From Klenkia terrae (lineage in GTDB: Bacteria > Actinomycetota > Actinomycetes > Mycobacteriales > Geodermatophilaceae), in the NCBI RefSeq assembly GCF_900491935.1, contig NZ_UEXK01000004.1, forward strand, positions 3,736,397 to 3,800,396: 64,000 bases of DNA. The letters are read 5' to 3'. Every line of letters starts with the position of its first letter. Within the stretch, counting starts at the first letter, position 1. This document shows positions 54,304-64,000 of this stretch, one piece after another. A program made the position numbers and the translations under genes. Below the pieces are notes generated by a model. That model was not told where the DNA came from and searched no databases. It saw nothing but the letters and a program-made list of their open reading frames with translations.

Positions 54304-55008
54304 GTGCCCTCCACCCCACGCCGCCGCCGTTCGCGGATCCGGTTCGCCGCCCTGCTGCTGGTCGCGGTCGAGATCCCGCTGTTCGCCGGGCTGCTGGTCG
54401 CCCAGGTCGCCGACCCGACGCCGGCCCGCGCGGCCGGGGACCACGCCTTCCTGAACCAGGCCGCCGACGGCGCGCCGGTGACCTGGGACCCCTGCAGCCC
54501 GGTCGGCTACGTCGTCGACTGGACCGACGCGCCGGATGGCGCGCTGGCCCTGGTGACCGATGCCGTCGCGACGGTCGAGGAGGCCACCGGGCTGACCTTC
54601 ACCGCGCTGGGGTCCACCCAGCTGCGCCCGGACCAGGGCGGCGCGACCGACCCGCTGCCCGGCGGTGCCGAGGTGCTGGTGTCCTGGGTGCCGACCGCGC
54701 AGGACGAGCTGTTCGCCGCCGGCGAGGCCATCGGGTGGGCCCGCCCGATGGTGGTCGGCGGCCGGTCCGGCGGCCAGGTCTACGGCCGCGGCCAGGTCGT
54801 GCTGGACGCCGGCTGGTTCGCCGACGCGAGCCCGGCGCGGGCGCGCGGGGTGCTGCTGCACGAGCTGGGCCACCTCGTCGGCCTGGACCACGTCGAGGAC
54901 CCCAGCCAGCTGATGGACGCCGGTGGGTCCCTCGGGCGGGAGTACCAGCAGGGCGACCTGGAGGGGCTGGCCCGGCTCGGCCCGCTCGCCGGACCCCGCT
55001 GCAGCTGA
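54304..55008 (+). CDS. Secreted matrixin-like metalloprotease, copy 1
   Basis: A 234-residue protein with a signal-anchor helix (IRFAALLLVAVEIPLFAGLL) and zinc motif HELGHLVGLDH at 186-196 (HExxHxxGxxH). After the zinc site a Met-turn (SQLMDAGG) is visible. It lacks the propeptide Cys-switch seen in eukaryotic matrixins; residues before the catalytic domain contain a CSP segment. GTG 54304 start. Paralogue two genes on. Target unknown. Confidence 0.83.
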   Translation: MPSTPRRRRSRIRFAALLLVAVEIPLFAGLLVAQVADPTPARAAGDHAFLNQAADGAPVTWDPCSPVGYVVDWTDAPDGALALVTDAVATVEEATGLTFTALGSTQLRPDQGGATDPLPGGAEVLVSWVPTAQDELFAAGEAIGWARPMVVGGRSGGQVYGRGQVVLDAGWFADASPARARGVLLHELGHLVGLDHVEDPSQLMDAGGSLGREYQQGDLEGLARLGPLAGPRCS

Positions 55009-55037
55009 CCGGGGGCGCGGTCGGATAGACAGTGCAC

Positions 55038-55571
55038 ATGACCGAGGCGACCACCCTGTCCGACTCCGGCTGGCTCTCCGGCGAGGAGATGGACGCCGCC
55101 CGCGAGCGGCTGCCGATCCTCTACGTGGACGCCGTCCCGGTCCGGGTCGACGAGCACGGCACGGTGACCAAGGTCGGCCTGCTGCTCCGGGTCGGCAGCG
55201 ACGGGCAGATCAAGCGGGCCCTGGTGTCGGGCCGGGTGCTGTACCACGAGCGGGTCCGCGCGGCGCTGCTCCGGCACCTGGAGAAGGACCTCGGCCCGCT
55301 CGCCCTGCCCCGGGTCCCGCCGGCCCCGCAGCCGTTCACCATCGCCGAGTACTTCCCGACCCCCGGGGTCACCCCGTTCCACGACCCGCGTCAGCACGCG
55401 GTGTCGCTGGCGTACGTGGTGCCGGTCGAGGGCGACTGCGAGCCCCAGCAGGACGCGCTGGAGCTCACCTGGTTCGCCCCGGACGAGGCCCGCGAGCCCG
55501 GCGTCCTCGCCGAGCTGGCCAACGGGCAGAGCGCCCTGGTGGTCCAGGCCCTCGCCCACCTGGGCGTCTGA
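55038..55571 (+). CDS. DUF4916 (NUDIX-fold) protein
   Basis: A 177-residue NUDIX-superfamily protein of the DUF4916 type (ILYVDAVPVRVDEHGTVTKV, later EYFPTPGVTPFHDPRQHAVS). The Nudix box G-x5-E-x7-REUXEE-x2-U-G is not intact, so hydrolase activity is doubtful. ATG 55038 is chosen over GTG 55032. It lies between two matrixin-like genes, 29 bases after the first. Cytoplasmic. Confidence 0.8.
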   Translation: MTEATTLSDSGWLSGEEMDAARERLPILYVDAVPVRVDEHGTVTKVGLLLRVGSDGQIKRALVSGRVLYHERVRAALLRHLEKDLGPLALPRVPPAPQPFTIAEYFPTPGVTPFHDPRQHAVSLAYVVPVEGDCEPQQDALELTWFAPDEAREPGVLAELANGQSALVVQALAHLGV

Positions 55572-55644: not shown

Positions 55645-56547
55645 ATGAGCGAGCCCCACCCCGACGAGGCCCCCACCCAGCGGTACCCCGTGCCGCAGTG
55701 GGGCCCGCCGGTGCTGCCCCCGGTTCTCCCGTCGCGTCGCCGGCGCGCGTGGCCGGGCCTGCTGACCGTCGTCCTCGTGCTGGTCGTGGCCGCAGCGGGC
55801 TGGTACCTGGGCAGCGGCCGCACGCCGTCCCTGCCGCTGGTCACCGCACCCTCGGTCGCCCCGGTGGAGGCGCCGCGCACGGTGCCCACCCCGGGCGGCG
55901 AGGAGTCCGACGAGCCGCTGGGCACCCCGCCGACCGCGCCGGACAGCGACGTCTACGCCTTCGTCGCCGAGCAGGCCGACGGCGTGACCCCGGTGGCCTA
56001 CGACCCGTGCCGCCCGGTCGCGGTGGTGCTGAGCACCGACGGCGCGCCCGAGGGCGCCGAGACGATGCTGGTCGACGCGCTGGCCCGGATGACCGCGGTG
56101 ACCGGCCTGCAGTTCCGCTACGACGGACCCACCGACGAGGTGCCCGGCGGCGGCCGCGCGGCCTACCAGCCCGACCGCTACGGCGACCGCTGGGCGCCGG
56201 TGGTGGTCGGCTGGCGCACCCCCGAGCAGGAGCCCGGCCTGGCCGGGGACGTCGCCGGCCTGGGCGGCAGCGCATCGGCCGGCCCGGACGGCGGACCGGT
56301 CGCCTACGTCACCGGCAGCGTCACCCTCGACGGCCCCGAGTACGCCACCCTGCTGGCCGACGGCGACGAGGCCCTGGCCCGCGCGATCCTGCTGCACGAG
56401 CTGGGCCACGTCGTCGGGCTGGCCCACGTGTGGGACGAGGACCAGCTGATGGCCTCGACCACCAGCGGCGACGTCCTGGACTTCGCCGACGGCGACATGG
56501 CCGGCCTGGCCCGCCTGGGCGCCGGGGCGTGCATCCCGGAGCTGTAG
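55645..56547 (+). CDS. Membrane-anchored matrixin-like metalloprotease, copy 2
   Basis: A 300-residue paralogue with a 35-residue Pro-rich cytoplasmic N-terminus, one anchor helix (AWPGLLTVVLVLVVAAAGWY), and an extracellular domain with zinc motif HELGHVVGLAH at 251-261 and Met-turn DQLMASTTS. The catalytic domain has the same layout as the 54304 gene: a conserved YDPCRPV near its start, matched there by WDPCSPV. Its stop lies three bases from the jetC stop on the opposite strand. Confidence 0.83.
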   Translation: MSEPHPDEAPTQRYPVPQWGPPVLPPVLPSRRRRAWPGLLTVVLVLVVAAAGWYLGSGRTPSLPLVTAPSVAPVEAPRTVPTPGGEESDEPLGTPPTAPDSDVYAFVAEQADGVTPVAYDPCRPVAVVLSTDGAPEGAETMLVDALARMTAVTGLQFRYDGPTDEVPGGGRAAYQPDRYGDRWAPVVVGWRTPEQEPGLAGDVAGLGGSASAGPDGGPVAYVTGSVTLDGPEYATLLADGDEALARAILLHELGHVVGLAHVWDEDQLMASTTSGDVLDFADGDMAGLARLGAGACIPEL

Positions 56548-56550
56548 CGG

Positions 56551-59500
56551 TCAGGCGGTGACCGACCGGGCCAGCGCCCGGCGGGTGCGGTAGTCCTCGA
56601 CGGTCAGGCACTGCAGCCGGGAGTCGTCGCCCTGCTGGTTGTCCACGTAGCCCAGCGAGGCCACGTAGGGCTCGATGACGTGGATCTTCTGCAGCGGGGT
56701 GACCACGAGCAGCTGCAGGCCCAGCCGGCCGAACAGGTCCAGGGCGAACCGGGTGGAGTCGTCCGAGCCCCGCCCGAACGCCTCGTCGATGACGACGAAC
56801 CGGAAGTTGCGGGCCAGGTGGGCGGCCGGGTCGATGCCGAACTGGTAGGCCAGCGACGCGGCCAGCACCGTGTAGGCCAGCTTCTCCTTCTGCCCGCCGG
56901 ACTTGCCCGCGGCGTCGGTGTGCGTCTCGTGCTCGGCGTCGTCGTGCCGCCAGCGCTCGATCGCGGAGAACACGAACCAGGTGCGGACGTCGGTGACGGT
57001 CCGGGCCCAGCGGCGGTCCTCGGCGGCGTGCCCGGCCCGGCCGCGCAGCCGCTGCACGATCCGGGCGATGCGGGCGAACCGCAGCTCCGGGTCGGCGTCG
57101 TCGACCTCGGTGCAGGACCGCAGGTCCGCCCGGAAGTCCTCGATCTCCGGGGCGCCGCTGCGCCGGGCCTCCAGGGCCAGGTAGCGGCCCGGGTGGTAGT
57201 CGATGTCGTGCAGCGAGCCGTTGATCGCCTCGATCCGCTCGGTCACCTGCGCGGCCCGCCGCTCCAGCTCGGCCAGGAACCCGGCGATGTCGCGCACGGT
57301 GTCCTGCTCCAGGCAGGCGGTGAAGGTCGCCTCGGCGCGGGGCAGCTCGTCGGTGCGCAGCCGCTCGTGCAGCTCGCGGAAGGCGTCCGCGGCGTCCCGC
57401 GAGGCGTCCAGACCGGTCGCGGCGGCCGGGTGCTGGGCGCGGAAGGCGGCCATGGCGCGCACCATCCGGGCCTCGACCTCGGCGCGCACCGAGGTCTGCG
57501 TGGTGCGCTCGCGCTCCAGCGCGGCGCGCAGGGTGCGCTCGCGCTCGTCGACATCGTCCAGGTCGCCGGGCGGGGAGGAGGCGATCCAGCCGCGCCGGTT
57601 CAGCCGCTCGGGTGCGGTCAGCGCGCGGTCGATCCGCAGCGCGCGGGCCACGGCCGAGCCGTCGTCCACGGCCTGGCGGGCGGGCACCGCGTCCCGGGCG
57701 TCGTCGGCGCCGGCCGCGGCCAGCCGGCGGCGGACGCCCTCCAGCACGCGGAAGGTCTCCCCGAGGGCGTGCGCGGCGGCGCCGCGGCGCTGCTGCAGGG
57801 TGGCCTGCGCCGAGGCCAGCGAGACGATGTCGCGGCGCAGGTCGTCCATCGCGCCGTCCAGGCCGAAGAGCACCCCGGAGGCGGCGACCAGCAGGTCGCG
57901 CTCGCGGCCGAGCTCGGCGATCTGCCGGATGGCGCCCTGCCAGTCCAGCGCCTTCCAGTTGTCGTAGGCCGACAGCTGGGCGAGGTCCCGGCCGCGGGCC
58001 ACGGTGCGGGCCCGCTCGGCGCGGACGGCGTCCCGGGCGGCGGAGAGCTCGCCGAGCTGGGGCAGCAGTGCGTTCTCCGCGGCGCCCAGCGCGCGGACCT
58101 TGCCGGCGTTGTCCCAGCCCAGCACCTGGTGCAGCGGGTCGCCCATCGGGTGCCGGTCGTCCAGGGCGTGCCGGCCGGTGCGGTCCTTGACCTGCCCGGT
58201 GCGGGTGACCGCGACCGGGGTGCGGCGGAACTCCTCGATGTCGTCGACCCGCAGGTGCGGCGCGCGCAGCGCCACCTGGGTCTCCACCCAGGCGGCCAGC
58301 GGGCTGGAGCGCACCTCGAGGGTGGCGGCCAGCGACTGCGGGGCCGGCATGGGCGAGGCGGCCGGCAGCTGGGCCGGCAGCGCCAGGTAGGCGAGCTCCG
58401 CGCCCAGGTCCTGCTCCTCGACCCAGGCGGTCACCGCGGCGTAGTGCTCGTGCGGCACGAGCACGGTCAGCGCGAAGTCGCGCAGCACCCGCTCGGCGGC
58501 ACCGGCCCACTCGGCGTGCACGGGGGAGACCCGGACCAGCTCGCCGGCGAAGGGCAGCAGGCCGGCGTCCACCGACAGCGCGGCGGCCAGCCGGTCGCGC
58601 AGCCGCAGGGAGTCCCGGGGGACGACGCCGGTGCGCCCGCGCAGCCCGGTCAGCTCGTGGCCGATCGCGGCCGCCCGGGAGCGCAGCGACGCCAGGGCCA
58701 CCTCGACCTCGGCCAGCCGCTCCTCGACCTGGGCCTCGCCGTCCACCGCGCGGGACAGGGCCTGGGCGATCTCGGTGCGCCGGGCGACGAAGTCCTCGAC
58801 GTCGGTGACCGGGTCCAGGCCGGTGGCCTCCAGCAGGCCGGCGAAGGTGCCGGCCCGGGTGCGCCGCTCGCGGCGGGCGACCTCGAGGTCCAGCAGCTGC
58901 TCGTCGATGTAGCGCAGCCGCTCGCCGCCGTTGCCGGTGCGCTGCATGGTCAGCGACAGCTCGCGGGCGCGGGCGAGGTCCAGGTTGGTGATGCCCTGGC
59001 TCAGCGCCCGGTCGGTGGCCGCGACCTCGGCGCGCTGCGTGGTGGCCTGCGCGGACAGCAGCTTCTCGCGCAGCCGGTCGGCCCACACCGGGAGCGCGCC
59101 CAGGTCGGCGTCCACGGTGACGATCTGCTCGGTGAGCACCGCGTGCCGGTCGGCGTCGGCGAGCACCGGTGCGAGCTGGGCCAGCTGGGTGCGGCCGGTG
59201 ACGACGGCGTCGTGCGCGCGGGTGAGCTGGTCGACGTGGCCGAGCAGCCGGTCCACCCAGCCGGCGGAGTCCCCGGGCTCGAGCAGCAGGTCGCGGACGA
59301 AGCCGTTGAGGTCGCCGACGGCCTTCATCGAGACGGTCTGGTGGAACAGGTCCATCGCCTGCTCCGAGGCGATGCCCAGCCGGTTGCGGTAGACCCGGCC
59401 GTACTCGGTGAAGGTGCCGAACACCTCGACGTCGACCCGGGCGGACAGCCGGCGGCGCAGCGCGGCCGGGTCGCTGCCGAACTCGGCGAGGTCACCGGCG

Positions 59501-60006
59501 ATCGAGAGGTCGCGGTCGGCGACCAGGTGGAACCGGTCGGGCTGGCCGACCTCGCCCGAGCGCAGCCAGAACACCTGGCCGAGGGTGACGGTCTCGTCCA
59601 GGGCCTCGTTGCGGAACACCGCGAGCAGCGCCGTCCAGGTGCTGCCCGGGCGCAGGCCCACGGTGCGGGGGGCGCCGGTGGTGTCGCTGCGCTCGGCCCG
59701 CCAGTGGCCCTGCACGTAGGAGCGCAGGTCGCGCTCGCGGGTGGGGGCGCCGGCGGCCTCGTTGTAGGAGACCCGGGCCGCGGGCAGCAGCAGCGTGCTC
59801 AACGCGTCGACGATGGTGGACTTGCCCGAGCCGATGTCCCCGGTGAGCAGGGTGTTCTGGCCGTCGGCGCGCAGCGTCCAGACCCGGCGGTCGAAGGTGC
59901 CCCAGTTGAGCATCTCCAGGCGGTCCAGCCGGAAGCCGGCGCGGCTGCCGGGGGCGTCGTCCTCGGTGGTGAGCAGCAGGTGCGGCACCGGCGGGGTGGT
60001 GGTCAC
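56551..60006 (-). CDS. jetC: JetC, SMC-like ATPase of a type I Wadjet system
   Basis: A 1151-residue SMC/MukB-like ATPase. The Walker A GDIGSGKST is at 56-64, and a long coiled-coil region follows with an interruption that should be the hinge. Near the C-terminus lie signature GKSGGQKEKLAY and Walker B FVVIDEAFGRGSDDST. Length and motifs are full. Wadjet complexes extrude DNA loops and cleave small circular DNA with JetD. GTG 60006 overlaps the jetB stop. The next gene downstream, three bases away, is convergent and unrelated, so jetD is not in its usual place. Confidence 0.92.
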   Translation of the reverse strand: MTTTPPVPHLLLTTEDDAPGSRAGFRLDRLEMLNWGTFDRRVWTLRADGQNTLLTGDIGSGKSTIVDALSTLLLPAARVSYNEAAGAPTRERDLRSYVQGHWRAERSDTTGAPRTVGLRPGSTWTALLAVFRNEALDETVTLGQVFWLRSGEVGQPDRFHLVADRDLSIAGDLAEFGSDPAALRRRLSARVDVEVFGTFTEYGRVYRNRLGIASEQAMDLFHQTVSMKAVGDLNGFVRDLLLEPGDSAGWVDRLLGHVDQLTRAHDAVVTGRTQLAQLAPVLADADRHAVLTEQIVTVDADLGALPVWADRLREKLLSAQATTQRAEVAATDRALSQGITNLDLARARELSLTMQRTGNGGERLRYIDEQLLDLEVARRERRTRAGTFAGLLEATGLDPVTDVEDFVARRTEIAQALSRAVDGEAQVEERLAEVEVALASLRSRAAAIGHELTGLRGRTGVVPRDSLRLRDRLAAALSVDAGLLPFAGELVRVSPVHAEWAGAAERVLRDFALTVLVPHEHYAAVTAWVEEQDLGAELAYLALPAQLPAASPMPAPQSLAATLEVRSSPLAAWVETQVALRAPHLRVDDIEEFRRTPVAVTRTGQVKDRTGRHALDDRHPMGDPLHQVLGWDNAGKVRALGAAENALLPQLGELSAARDAVRAERARTVARGRDLAQLSAYDNWKALDWQGAIRQIAELGRERDLLVAASGVLFGLDGAMDDLRRDIVSLASAQATLQQRRGAAAHALGETFRVLEGVRRRLAAAGADDARDAVPARQAVDDGSAVARALRIDRALTAPERLNRRGWIASSPPGDLDDVDERERTLRAALERERTTQTSVRAEVEARMVRAMAAFRAQHPAAATGLDASRDAADAFRELHERLRTDELPRAEATFTACLEQDTVRDIAGFLAELERRAAQVTERIEAINGSLHDIDYHPGRYLALEARRSGAPEIEDFRADLRSCTEVDDADPELRFARIARIVQRLRGRAGHAAEDRRWARTVTDVRTWFVFSAIERWRHDDAEHETHTDAAGKSGGQKEKLAYTVLAASLAYQFGIDPAAHLARNFRFVVIDEAFGRGSDDSTRFALDLFGRLGLQLLVVTPLQKIHVIEPYVASLGYVDNQQGDDSRLQCLTVEDYRTRRALARSVTA

Positions 60007-60674
60007 AGGAGGTCCTCCTCGATGTCGGCGGAGAAGGCGGCGGAGAACGAGCCAGAGCCGGAGGCGGCGGCGGGGTGCTGGCCGGCGTACTCGGCGAGCT
60101 TGGCGTCGAACTCGCCGAGCCACTGGGCGTCGACGAAGGCCTTGAGCACGCGGCGCACCTCGAACCCGCCGTCCGGCCCGGGCATGCGGCGCAGGAAGCC
60201 CAGCTCGACGACCTTGGCGATGTGCCCGTCGACCTGCTCCACCAGCCGGTTGCGCCGGCCGGGGTCGGGCAGGAAGTCCGCGAGCAGGTCGACCAGGGCG
60301 GCCCGGGTGAGCACCAGCCTGCCGCCGTCGCCGGCGTCGGCCACGACCAGCTCGCGGCGGAGCAGGGCCAGCAGCAGGCTGACCGGGAAGGACAGCGACC
60401 GGCGGGCGACCAGCCGGGGGAGCGGCCGCTCGGTGCCCGGGTCCTCGGGGCGCTGGCGCAGGAAGGCGTAGCCCTCCCGCTCGTCGACCACCGGGACCAG
60501 CCCGAGGACGGCGACGTGGTCGCGCAGGTCGGACTGCAGGGCGGTCAGGTGCCGCCAGACCTCCGGCGAGCTCTCCCGGTACAGGACACCGCGCATCAGC
60601 GTGGTCACCACCAGGGGCAGGTCGAGCTCGGCGCGGGCAGGAGCGGCGTCGAGCTCGGGCAGCAGGGCGGTCAT
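60003..60674 (-). CDS. jetB: JetB, DUF4194 kleisin-associated subunit
   Basis: A 223-residue DUF4194 protein, the KITE-like (winged-helix) subunit that binds the JetA kleisin. Characteristic segments are TLMRGVLYRESSPEVWRHL and ARRSLSFPVSLLLALLRREL, then an acidic C-terminus (FSADIEEDLL). It starts ATG 60674 within the jetA stop (ATGA) and overlaps jetC by GTGA. Its order between jetA and jetC matches type I Wadjet. Confidence 0.9.
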   Translation of the reverse strand: MTALLPELDAAPARAELDLPLVVTTLMRGVLYRESSPEVWRHLTALQSDLRDHVAVLGLVPVVDEREGYAFLRQRPEDPGTERPLPRLVARRSLSFPVSLLLALLRRELVVADAGDGGRLVLTRAALVDLLADFLPDPGRRNRLVEQVDGHIAKVVELGFLRRMPGPDGGFEVRRVLKAFVDAQWLGEFDAKLAEYAGQHPAAASGSGSFSAAFSADIEEDLL

Positions 60675-62113
60675 CGGGAGTCCTCCACGGGGATCAGCCG
60701 CGCGCGGCGGCCGGCGGGGTGGGTGCTGCCGGCGCGGGGACCGGTGTCCCGGCGGGCGTAGACGACGCGGGGCAGGGTGGCGCTGCGGGGGAGACCGTCG
60801 GGGTCGGTCCAGCTGACGGTGTCGTCGTCGTCCCGGTCGTCGGGGACGTCGTCGTCGGCGGGGAGCGGGAAGACGACGTCGAAGGCGTCGTCGCGCAGGG
60901 ACAGGTAGGCCATCAGCTCGGCCAGGCCGTGCTGCAGGGGGTGCTGCTCGAGGACGGTCGCCAGCTCCACCCGCGGGCGCTGCAGCAGCGCGCGCCGCAC
61001 GTGCGCGGTGAGCGGCACCGGGTCCACCTGGACCTGGCCGAACAGCGCGGTCGCGGCGAAGTCCTCGTCGCCGGCGTCGGGCCGGGCGCTGTCCACCGCG
61101 GCCCGCCGGGGCGGGGCGTACAGCGGGCGCTCGACCGGCAGGACGACGGTGGGGGCCAGGTCGTCCAGCTCCACGGCGAACCCGTCCAGCGGGGTCAGGC
61201 CGGCCGACAACCGGCGGGCACGCTGCTCGATGCCGCCGAGCAGCTCCAGCACCCGGCGGTTCTCCCGCCACACCCGGTCGTCCAGGCCCGAGCGCAGGCC
61301 GTCGGTCAGCCCGCGCAGCACCATCCGGGTGTGCTCGGCGGCGATGACCAGGTCGTGCTGCACCCGGCGCAGCTGCGGGTCGGCGCAGGTGCGCAGCGCG
61401 GGCAGGGCGTGCACCCGGGTGAGCAGGTCGGTGAGCTCCTCCTGCAGGCGCGGGGAGAGCAGCCGGTCGTAGCAGGCGAAGAAGCTGCGGCCCTGGTCGC
61501 CGTCGGCGATCCCGCGGCGACCCGCGGCGACGTCCAGGGCCAGGGCGCCGTCCCCGCCGGCGATCCGGTCGCGCAGCTCGCGGTCGCGCTCGCGGAAGGC
61601 CGCCTCGACCGCGCGCAGGTCGGCGAGCAGGCCGCGGGCGGTGCGGGCCAGGTGCAGGTAGCGGTCGCGCTGGAGGGTCGGCTCTGCGTCCCCGGCGGCC
61701 AGGGAGCGGAGCAGGTCGACGACGGAGTCCAGCCGGGCGGCGGTGTCCACGAACGGCCGCGGGGCCAGCCCGGCCACCCAGGCGATGGCCAGCTCGGCCG
61801 CCGGGGTGGCGTCCATGACGGGCTCGTCGGAGCCGGGCGGGTACCAGGCGCGCAGCCAGCCGCCGTCCGGGCCGGCCCAGCCGTCGAGGTAGCCGCGGGC
61901 GTCCACCTGGGCCCGGGGGGTGCCGTCCAGGTCGGCCAGCAGGTCGCCGAGCCGGTCGGCCAGCTCGCCGGCCGGCAGCCCGTGCGCGCCGCCGGTGACG
62001 AAGACGCGGGACAGGAAGGCGATCACCAAGGGGGCGTCGTCGGCCCGGAGCAGGCGCCAGGCGGCGTGCTGCTGCAGTGCCGCGATGGCATCGACGCTGT
62101 GGTCGACCTGCAT
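60671..62113 (-). CDS. jetA: JetA, DUF3375 kleisin-like subunit
   Basis: A 480-residue DUF3375 protein, the kleisin subunit of type I Wadjet. The N-terminal region (LLRADDAPLVIAFLSRVF), the central RSFFACYDRLLSPRLQEEL and the C-terminal winged-helix region (ELATVLEQHPLQHGLAELMA) are typical. A basic tail ends the protein. ATG 62113 is the first gene of the operon, 95 bases after a GGDEF-EAL gene on the same strand; the spacer has no clear terminator. Confidence 0.9.
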   Translation of the reverse strand: MQVDHSVDAIAALQQHAAWRLLRADDAPLVIAFLSRVFVTGGAHGLPAGELADRLGDLLADLDGTPRAQVDARGYLDGWAGPDGGWLRAWYPPGSDEPVMDATPAAELAIAWVAGLAPRPFVDTAARLDSVVDLLRSLAAGDAEPTLQRDRYLHLARTARGLLADLRAVEAAFRERDRELRDRIAGGDGALALDVAAGRRGIADGDQGRSFFACYDRLLSPRLQEELTDLLTRVHALPALRTCADPQLRRVQHDLVIAAEHTRMVLRGLTDGLRSGLDDRVWRENRRVLELLGGIEQRARRLSAGLTPLDGFAVELDDLAPTVVLPVERPLYAPPRRAAVDSARPDAGDEDFAATALFGQVQVDPVPLTAHVRRALLQRPRVELATVLEQHPLQHGLAELMAYLSLRDDAFDVVFPLPADDDVPDDRDDDDTVSWTDPDGLPRSATLPRVVYARRDTGPRAGSTHPAGRRARLIPVEDSR

Positions 62114-62207: not shown

Positions 62208-64000
62208 CTACGTGGGGTTACCGGCTCGCTGCTCGGCGACGAGCTGCTCGGTCGGCACCGGGCGGCCGAACAGCGACCCCTGGCCGGCGTCGATGCCCAG
62301 CCGGGCCAACCGGGCGCACTGCTCGTCGGTCTCCACGCCCTCGGCCAGCACGCTGATGCCCAGCGCACCGGCCAGCCCGACCAGCCCGCTGAGCAGGGCG
62401 CCGGCGGCGTCCGGCCCGGTGATGGACCGGTCGAGCTTGAGCACCGAGACGGGGTAGCGCTGCAGGTAGGCCACCGACGTGTAGCCGGCGCCGAAGTCGT
62501 CCAGGCTGACCCCGACGCCGGCGGCCGCCAGCTCGCGCAGGGTCTGCACGCCCGCGTCGGCCGGCAGCTGGTCGTGCTCGGTGATCTCCAGGTGCAGCCG
62601 GTGCGGGTCCAGCCCGGTGTCGGCCAGCACCCGGCGCACCCGGTCGGCCAGCCGCAGGTCGGACATCGTCGAGCGCCCCAGGTTCACGCTGACCGTCCAG
62701 GTCGGGTCCGGCCAGGCCTGCGCCGCGGCGCAGGCCTCGCGCAGCACCCAGGCGTCCACGTCGGCGCCGTGGCCCAGCTCCTCGGCGACGGGCAGGAAGG
62801 TGTCGGGGCCCAGCAGCCCGCGGCCGGGGTGCGCCCAGCGCACCAGCGCCTCGCAGCCCTGCACGACGCGGGAGGGCAGCGCGACCAGGGGCTGGTAGAG
62901 CAGCACCAGCTCGCCGGCGTCGGGCTCGCCGGCGACCAGGCGGCGCAGGTCGGCGCCCAGCGACAGCTGGCCGAGCACCTCCTCGCGCTGGGCGGTGGCG
63001 AACCGGGTCGCCGCCCCGCGGGTGGCGCCCTTGCTGGTGTAGAGCGCCACGTCGGCGTCGGCCAGGGCCAGGGGCAGCTCGCTGGCGCCGGTCAGGTCCA
63101 CCCAGCCCGCGCTGCAGCGCACCGGCAGGGCCCGGTCGGTCGGCCCGCGGTCGAGGACCACCGGCGCGCGGAAGGCCGAGGCGATCACCTCGGGCACGCC
63201 GACGCCGTCGGGTGGGAGCAGCAGCACGAACTCGTCGCCGCCCGAGCGGGCCACGGTGCCCCGCTCGCCGACCGCGGCGGCCAGCCGCAACGACACCGCG
63301 ACCAGCAGGCGGTCGCCGGTCTCGTGGCCGTAGGTGTCGTTGACGTGCTTGAAGTCGTCGACGTCCAGCACGGCCAGCCGGCCGACCACGACGTCGTCCG
63401 GGGTGCCGGGCGGGACCAGGTCGTCGAAGGCGATCCGCAGCCCGCGCCGGTTGGCCAGCCCCGTGAGCGGGTCCTGCCGGGCCTGCTGCTCGCTGCCCCG
63501 GATGGTCTGCGCGCCGCGGACGATGGCCAGCGCACCGACCACGGCCGCGGCACCCAGGTAGGCGGTGGTCGGCAGGTGGCCGGCGTCGTCGACCAGCCAC
63601 AGCGCGACCGGGACCAGCACCAGCGGGGTCAGCCCGAGCAGGCGGGCGGACTCCGACCGCAGCCGGGACAGCCGGGCGCCGGTGAACGCGGTGCGCATGT
63701 CCGGGTGCAGCGAGCCGGCGACGAACAGGCACATGGCCGCCGTCCAGAGCACGCCGGTGCCGGCCTGCGGGCCGGGCAGCCGGACGCCGTCGGCGGACGA
63801 GAGGCAGTCGTAGGCCGCGGCCGCGACCCCACCGGCCAGCAGCAGCCGCATGCTGGTGCCCAGGTCGGCGCGCGAGGCGGCGAAGCGCAGCAGCAGGCAG
63901 ATCAGCACCAGGTCGAACGGGGCGACCGAGGTGGCCCACGGCACCCCGGGTGTCATCGCCGCGGCCACCGACTGGGCCACGGCCAGGACGACGACGGCGG
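62208..64000 (-). CDS. GGDEF-EAL cyclic-di-GMP protein, 5' end beyond the window
   Basis: At least 597 residues. N-terminal membrane helices continue to the edge, and the frame stays open with hydrophobic residues past the GTG at 63980, so the true start is probably outside. The cyclase domain keeps the RSGGDEF active site and DPLTGLANRRGL. The EAL domain keeps CEALVRWAHPGRG, LEITEH, DDFGAGYTSVAYL and AEGVET, so both synthesis and hydrolysis of cyclic-di-GMP look possible. It precedes jetA on the same strand. Confidence 0.9.
   Translation of the reverse strand, partial: AVVVLAVAQSVAAAMTPGVPWATSVAPFDLVLICLLLRFAASRADLGTSMRLLLAGGVAAAAYDCLSSADGVRLPGPQAGTGVLWTAAMCLFVAGSLHPDMRTAFTGARLSRLRSESARLLGLTPLVLVPVALWLVDDAGHLPTTAYLGAAAVVGALAIVRGAQTIRGSEQQARQDPLTGLANRRGLRIAFDDLVPPGTPDDVVVGRLAVLDVDDFKHVNDTYGHETGDRLLVAVSLRLAAAVGERGTVARSGGDEFVLLLPPDGVGVPEVIASAFRAPVVLDRGPTDRALPVRCSAGWVDLTGASELPLALADADVALYTSKGATRGAATRFATAQREEVLGQLSLGADLRRLVAGEPDAGELVLLYQPLVALPSRVVQGCEALVRWAHPGRGLLGPDTFLPVAEELGHGADVDAWVLREACAAAQAWPDPTWTVSVNLGRSTMSDLRLADRVRRVLADTGLDPHRLHLEITEHDQLPADAGVQTLRELAAAGVGVSLDDFGAGYTSVAYLQRYPVSVLKLDRSITGPDAAGALLSGLVGLAGALGISVLAEGVETDEQCARLARLGIDAGQGSLFGRPVPTEQLVAEQRAGNPT

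Follow-up and report, generated by a model that had tools for sequence, protein, structure and literature searches.

Type I Wadjet systems (JetABCD, MksBEFG or EptABCD) combine a kleisin (JetA), a KITE subunit (JetB) and a MukB-like SMC ATPase (JetC) with the nuclease JetD. The dimeric JetABC motor extrudes the plasmid first and JetD is activated afterwards (PMC12647877). In B. subtilis, suppression of plasmid transformation needs all four subunits (PMC10586767), and in C. glutamicum the nuclease is bound by the kleisin (PMC10123090). The C. glutamicum JetABCD has no part in chromosome organisation (PMC7083940), and a role of the core on the chromosome is therefore not to be taken for granted. 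The Pseudomonas aeruginosa MksBEF also consists of a kleisin, a KITE subunit and a MukB-like SMC protein. It has no nuclease subunit, its host possesses Smc, and its function in chromosome segregation has been shown (PMC7485682). In a review, P. aeruginosa MksBEF was proposed to have arisen by JetD loss. The wider possibility that the MksBEF and MukBEF condensins descend from Wadjet systems that cleave plasmids was raised there too, and it rests on deep, ancient comparisons.

The window analysed here, a stretch of 64,000 nucleotides from Klenkia terrae, a member of a genus of soil bacteria, carries the Type I gene order jetA-jetB-jetC on the minus strand. Sequence and profile searches find all three genes full-length and no jetD after jetC. 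The jetA gene (60671..62113) encodes an MksF-like kleisin of 480 residues which matches PF11855 (DUF3375) with 303.7 bits and is called JetA1 by PADLOC. It overlaps jetB (60003..60674) by ATGA at 60674-60671. The latter gene encodes an MksE-like KITE subunit of 223 residues, assigned to PF13835 (DUF4194; 137.1 bits) and to JetB1 of PADLOC. This protein also exceeds the cut-off of the MksE Pfam family PF21980 (44.1 bits against 27). A GTGA overlap at 60006-60003 links jetB to jetC (56551..60006), whose product is an MksB-like, MukB-related SMC ATPase of 1151 residues (PADLOC JetC1, 1169.6 bits over 1127 residues). The ATPase motifs of JetC are intact: Walker A (GDIGSGKS), the signature (SGGQ) and Walker B (VVIDEA). 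Coordinates, sequence and profile scores thus bear out what the earlier note had read from the letters, namely three full-length, coupled subunits with preserved ATPase motifs.

The operon therefore holds the three core subunits of a Type I Wadjet system. With a kleisin, a KITE subunit of the MksE family, an SMC protein and no nuclease subunit, it equally has the composition of MksBEF. This assignment rests on profiles and, for the kleisin, on AlphaFold and Foldseek. The AlphaFold model of JetA (mean pLDDT 81.6, pTM 0.50) has its best PDB matches in E. coli JetA (8as8, 8q72) and P. aeruginosa JetA (8dk2), followed by MukF. Global TM-scores are low, which is not surprising for a flexible protein of several domains. 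Klenkia JetA is thus predicted to keep the kleisin fold. The model of a JetD-associated JetA is of low confidence (pLDDT 72.8, pTM 0.35) and was left out of the comparison.

The nuclease itself (DUF3322 plus the JetD_C/DUF2220 Toprim domain) is missing from the operon. In JetD-bearing relatives jetD lies directly after jetC; the corresponding site in the window is reduced to three bases (56548..56550). The two Pfam profiles, PF11795 (DUF3322) and PF09983 (JetD_C), have no match in the whole 4.8 Mb genome, which is 99.98% complete, and they are silent in all nine Klenkia genomes, the source genome and eight more. The same searches find JetD in C. glutamicum, which served as positive control. 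A purpose-built JetD profile recovered the nuclease at nearly all other loci having enough sequence. Together with the two Pfam profiles over whole genomes, it rules out a divergent or relocated jetD. The absence of jetD after jetC and elsewhere in the window, as claimed in the earlier note, hence extends to the entire genome, and no jetD travels with the locus from another site.

JetC is 85-92% identical in K. soli, K. marina, K. brasiliensis, K. taihuensis and Klenkia sp. PcliD-1-E, and the JetD search repeated on four of these five genomes found none. In all six species jetABC is located between a GGDEF-EAL gene and a metalloprotease gene. The GGDEF-EAL gene lies upstream of jetA (62208..63980, minus strand; PF00990 and PF00563). 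The protease is a membrane-anchored, matrixin-like (M10) protein (55645..56547, plus strand; PF00413). An assembly gap, which the note had named as a possible cause, is ruled out: the region is contiguous in the six species, sequenced in separate assemblies, and the jetD-less operon occupies the same place in each. In the window and in K. soli nothing stands between jetC and the protease, and in the other four species there is an extra gene. It lies on the opposite strand and encodes an alpha/beta hydrolase, not JetD.

The comparison with relatives that the note had proposed dates the absence. JetC is encoded in 23 of 115 Geodermatophilaceae genomes, seven from Klenkia and sixteen from other members of the family. 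In all sixteen non-Klenkia genomes jetD lies at most about 1 kb from JetC, directly downstream of jetC; none of the seven Klenkia genomes has one there. As the Klenkia species are not independent, this counts as one loss event and not as seven. In the JetC tree Klenkia forms one clade (SH-aLRT 100), sister to the JetD-bearing Geodermatophilaceae. Most likely, then, the loss of jetD took place in situ, in a Klenkia ancestor. In this historical sense the note was right to consider a lost effector. A conserved neighbour gene (55032..55571, plus strand) serves as a marker of the locus, with homologues of 85-86% identity near jetD in two JetD-bearing relatives. The homologue lies beyond jetD, by about 0.2 kb in one of them (G028; L128 7441-7974) and by about 5.4 kb in the other (G025; L124 779-1318). 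The shared marker suggests the same chromosomal site, from which jetD was lost in place. In G028 (L128 9405-14870) jetD is intact and frameshifts interrupt both jetC and jetA.

The named loci which lack JetD and have enough downstream sequence all belong to Klenkia or to Cellulosimicrobium. Every Cellulosimicrobium species examined (L058, L061, L063, L077, L085, L091, L094) carries an intact Type I jetABC without jetD. No JetD was detected in six of the seven Cellulosimicrobium genomes searched, and the seventh has JetD elsewhere. Both operons fall in the SGGQ clade of JetC. The Cellulosimicrobium operon, however, forms a separate clade in the JetC tree and occupies another locus, followed in L058 by a TetR gene and topA. 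The tree rules out a single jetD-less clade across Actinomycetes and implies two or more losses of jetD in the SGGQ clade.

At the level of the class, JetA is found in 65 of 395 genomes and a JetD_C match in 37 of 395. Many of the JetA loci have no nearby JetD, and these mostly belong to a distant JetC branch with an SGGE signature, which spans several families. The SGGE operons of mycobacteria and other Actinomycetes resemble the Klenkia operon in their DUF3375, DUF4194 and SMC genes, in the lack of an adjoining jetD and in their variable downstream genes. Yet they constitute a separate deep branch, and the Klenkia operon does not derive from them. From these comparisons, JetD-less MksBEF-like operons are common in Actinomycetes, and the unusual point in Klenkia is that jetD was lost recently and from within the classical Type I clade. 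The SGGE branch (L130-L163, L169) is deep and mostly without jetD, with a divergent JetD in a few members. In one further genome (G345; L181 3511-20000, L183 1-1130) jetA, jetB and jetC are several kb apart, with ABC-transporter-like genes among those between them; PF09983 finds no JetD in that genome.

Even without jetD, the operon is being maintained. NG86 dN/dS values were dropped, since G+C at third positions is about 98% and these sites saturate. The free omega search of IQ-TREE remained stuck at 1.0 for jetA and jetC, so we used a likelihood profile over fixed omega values (GY codon model, F3X4 frequencies, kappa 1.8). Across the six Klenkia species omega peaks at 0.08 for each of jetA, jetB and jetC, a value to be read as a single ratio per clade from genes with G or C at almost every third codon position. 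An omega of 1 is worse by 360 (jetA), 119 (jetB) and 757 (jetC) log units. In the JetD-bearing sister clade the peak is at 0.05; of the flanking genes, the thioesterase gene peaks at 0.03, the protease gene at 0.10 and the GGDEF-EAL gene at 0.12. The codon likelihoods indicate strong purifying selection on jetABC, with relaxation at most mild.

We consider it fairly probable (about 0.6) that the locus is a Type I Wadjet core which lost JetD in the Klenkia ancestor and has persisted as a functional SMC complex of three subunits, of MksBEF type. The locus shares with Type I Wadjet systems the three protein families, the gene order, the overlaps, the ATPase motifs and the placement in the JetC tree. 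It differs in that Klenkia has no JetD/MksG nuclease in operon or genome and in that its JetA lacks a helix of 31 residues (see below). By the four-gene definition it is not a Wadjet defence system and is best filed as a Wadjet-derived MksBEF-like complex. An ordinary Smc is encoded in all nine Klenkia genomes, so that jetABC would be an extra complex. By its subunit make-up it compares with the P. aeruginosa MksBEF, and the simplest reading is a comparable loop extruder that would not cleave. By analogy with the reported JetABC motors, it would load on DNA and extrude loops by ATP hydrolysis, never cutting the DNA. Its task would be that of an accessory condensin beside Smc, in chromosome folding or segregation; unlike in P. 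aeruginosa, where segregation was demonstrated, this role in Klenkia is inferred. Among the three options of the earlier note (a condensin-like system, another nuclease, a lost effector), the condensin-like role is the best supported.

The locus probably shows a defence machine that has been converted in nature to a condensin-like complex which organises DNA. A broader proposition, to which we give slightly less than even odds, includes Cellulosimicrobium as an independent instance. In both genera a defence SMC complex would be becoming a housekeeping condensin, its nuclease deleted in place and its motor selected for a new task that involves no cleavage, with the chromosome or circular DNA as its target. 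Klenkia offers a recent and polarised case, with jetD in the sister genera and none in the genus, a motor under selection, and one species in which the ATPase motifs are lost. Comparing these close relatives allows the passage from defence to condensin to be tested directly. For annotation, jetABC alone should not count as a Wadjet defence system.

The same intact motor subunits and ATPase motifs under purifying selection would also suit a JetABC that remains directed against plasmids without cutting them. It would extrude and compact small circular DNA and thereby silence or sequester it, as reported for Smc5/6 on viral circles. The core senses DNA shape and size, with JetD merely executing (PMC10586767). 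However, all four subunits were required for the suppression of transformation in B. subtilis (same study), and in C. glutamicum deletion of mksG alone raises plasmid copy number as deletion of mksB does (PMC10123090). We regard such plasmid control as unlikely.

Still more doubtful is the view of the operon as a disappearing remnant, in which jetD went first and jetABC is now decaying under weak constraint. Two Klenkia genomes speak for it. At the same locus of G081 (L121 12023-15981) jetB is missing, and JetA is limited to its middle and C-terminal parts, the N-terminal winged helix being gone. The JetC frame of 1092 codons has lost the Walker A lysine, the signature and the Walker B motifs. 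In the single-contig genome G080 the site is empty, with no jet gene between the GGDEF-EAL gene, whose homologue is kept, and the thioesterase gene. An ATPase-dead remnant in one genome and no jet genes in another indicate that the operon is dispensable, which weighs against the preferred reading as well. Further support comes from the core proteins of the six species. Their JetA lacks, in the alignment, a helical segment of ~31 residues near residues 140-147. This segment (RLAELERRRxxIDxEIxRVRxG) is conserved in most JetD-bearing actinobacterial sequences and kept in Cellulosimicrobium, and the helix is also present in many more distant JetD-bearing sequences. Among the positions conserved at 90% in JetD-bearing sequences, Klenkia differs at 24 of 269 in JetC and at 15 of 67 in JetA, compared with 3 of 253 and 1 of 67 in the JetD-bearing sister clade and 3 in each protein of Cellulosimicrobium. 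This excess, which also counts against the preferred reading, may reflect either a shifted function or an eased constraint. On the alignments, the Klenkia core has diverged in a manner not seen in Cellulosimicrobium. Against progressive decay stand three open frames with intact motifs in six species, and an omega of 0.08, which is near the value for the JetD-bearing sister clade and lower than in two of the three flanking genes.

The order of events within the genus can be partly reconstructed. G081 keeps the JetA helix, and the deletion in the six species therefore postdates their split from G081. On both sides of this split jetD is missing. The JetC frame of G081 is still open, with a three-taxon omega of about 0.1; the protein may be a pseudo-ATPase with some remaining role. 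For JetB, the published IFDR docking motif is missing from JetD-bearing actinobacterial sequences too. At positions that read YRDTH in most actinobacterial JetD-bearing sequences, both jetD-less clades have YRE(S/T). As YRE also occurs in some JetD-bearing sequences, loss of the docking motif was rejected as an explanation.

Least probable is the replacement of JetD by an unrelated, unlinked nuclease that leaves JetABC plasmid-cleaving. It would account for the selection on jetABC, and any genome has other nucleases. But no gene is constant at the JetD position, where the window has three bases and four species have an alpha/beta hydrolase gene. The metalloprotease belongs to the core genes of the genus whatever the state of jetABC, and no HNH or other nuclease domain occurs among the neighbours scanned. 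The secreted HNH protein which the earlier note placed upstream as a conceivable, if unlikely, partner is not supported, as no HNH domain was detected among the window proteins scanned around jetABC. The convergent metalloprotease does end three bases past jetC as described there (stop at 56547). It is a neighbour outside the system, present in all nine Klenkia genomes, even where jetABC is absent or damaged, and was discarded as a partner. It has a paralogue in the window: the M10-like metalloproteases at 54304-55008 and 55645-56547, about 41% identical, flank the marker gene 55032-55571. On the other side of the operon, upstream of jetA, Klenkia carries a tandem pair of GGDEF-EAL paralogues, the gene at 62208-63980 and one further upstream.
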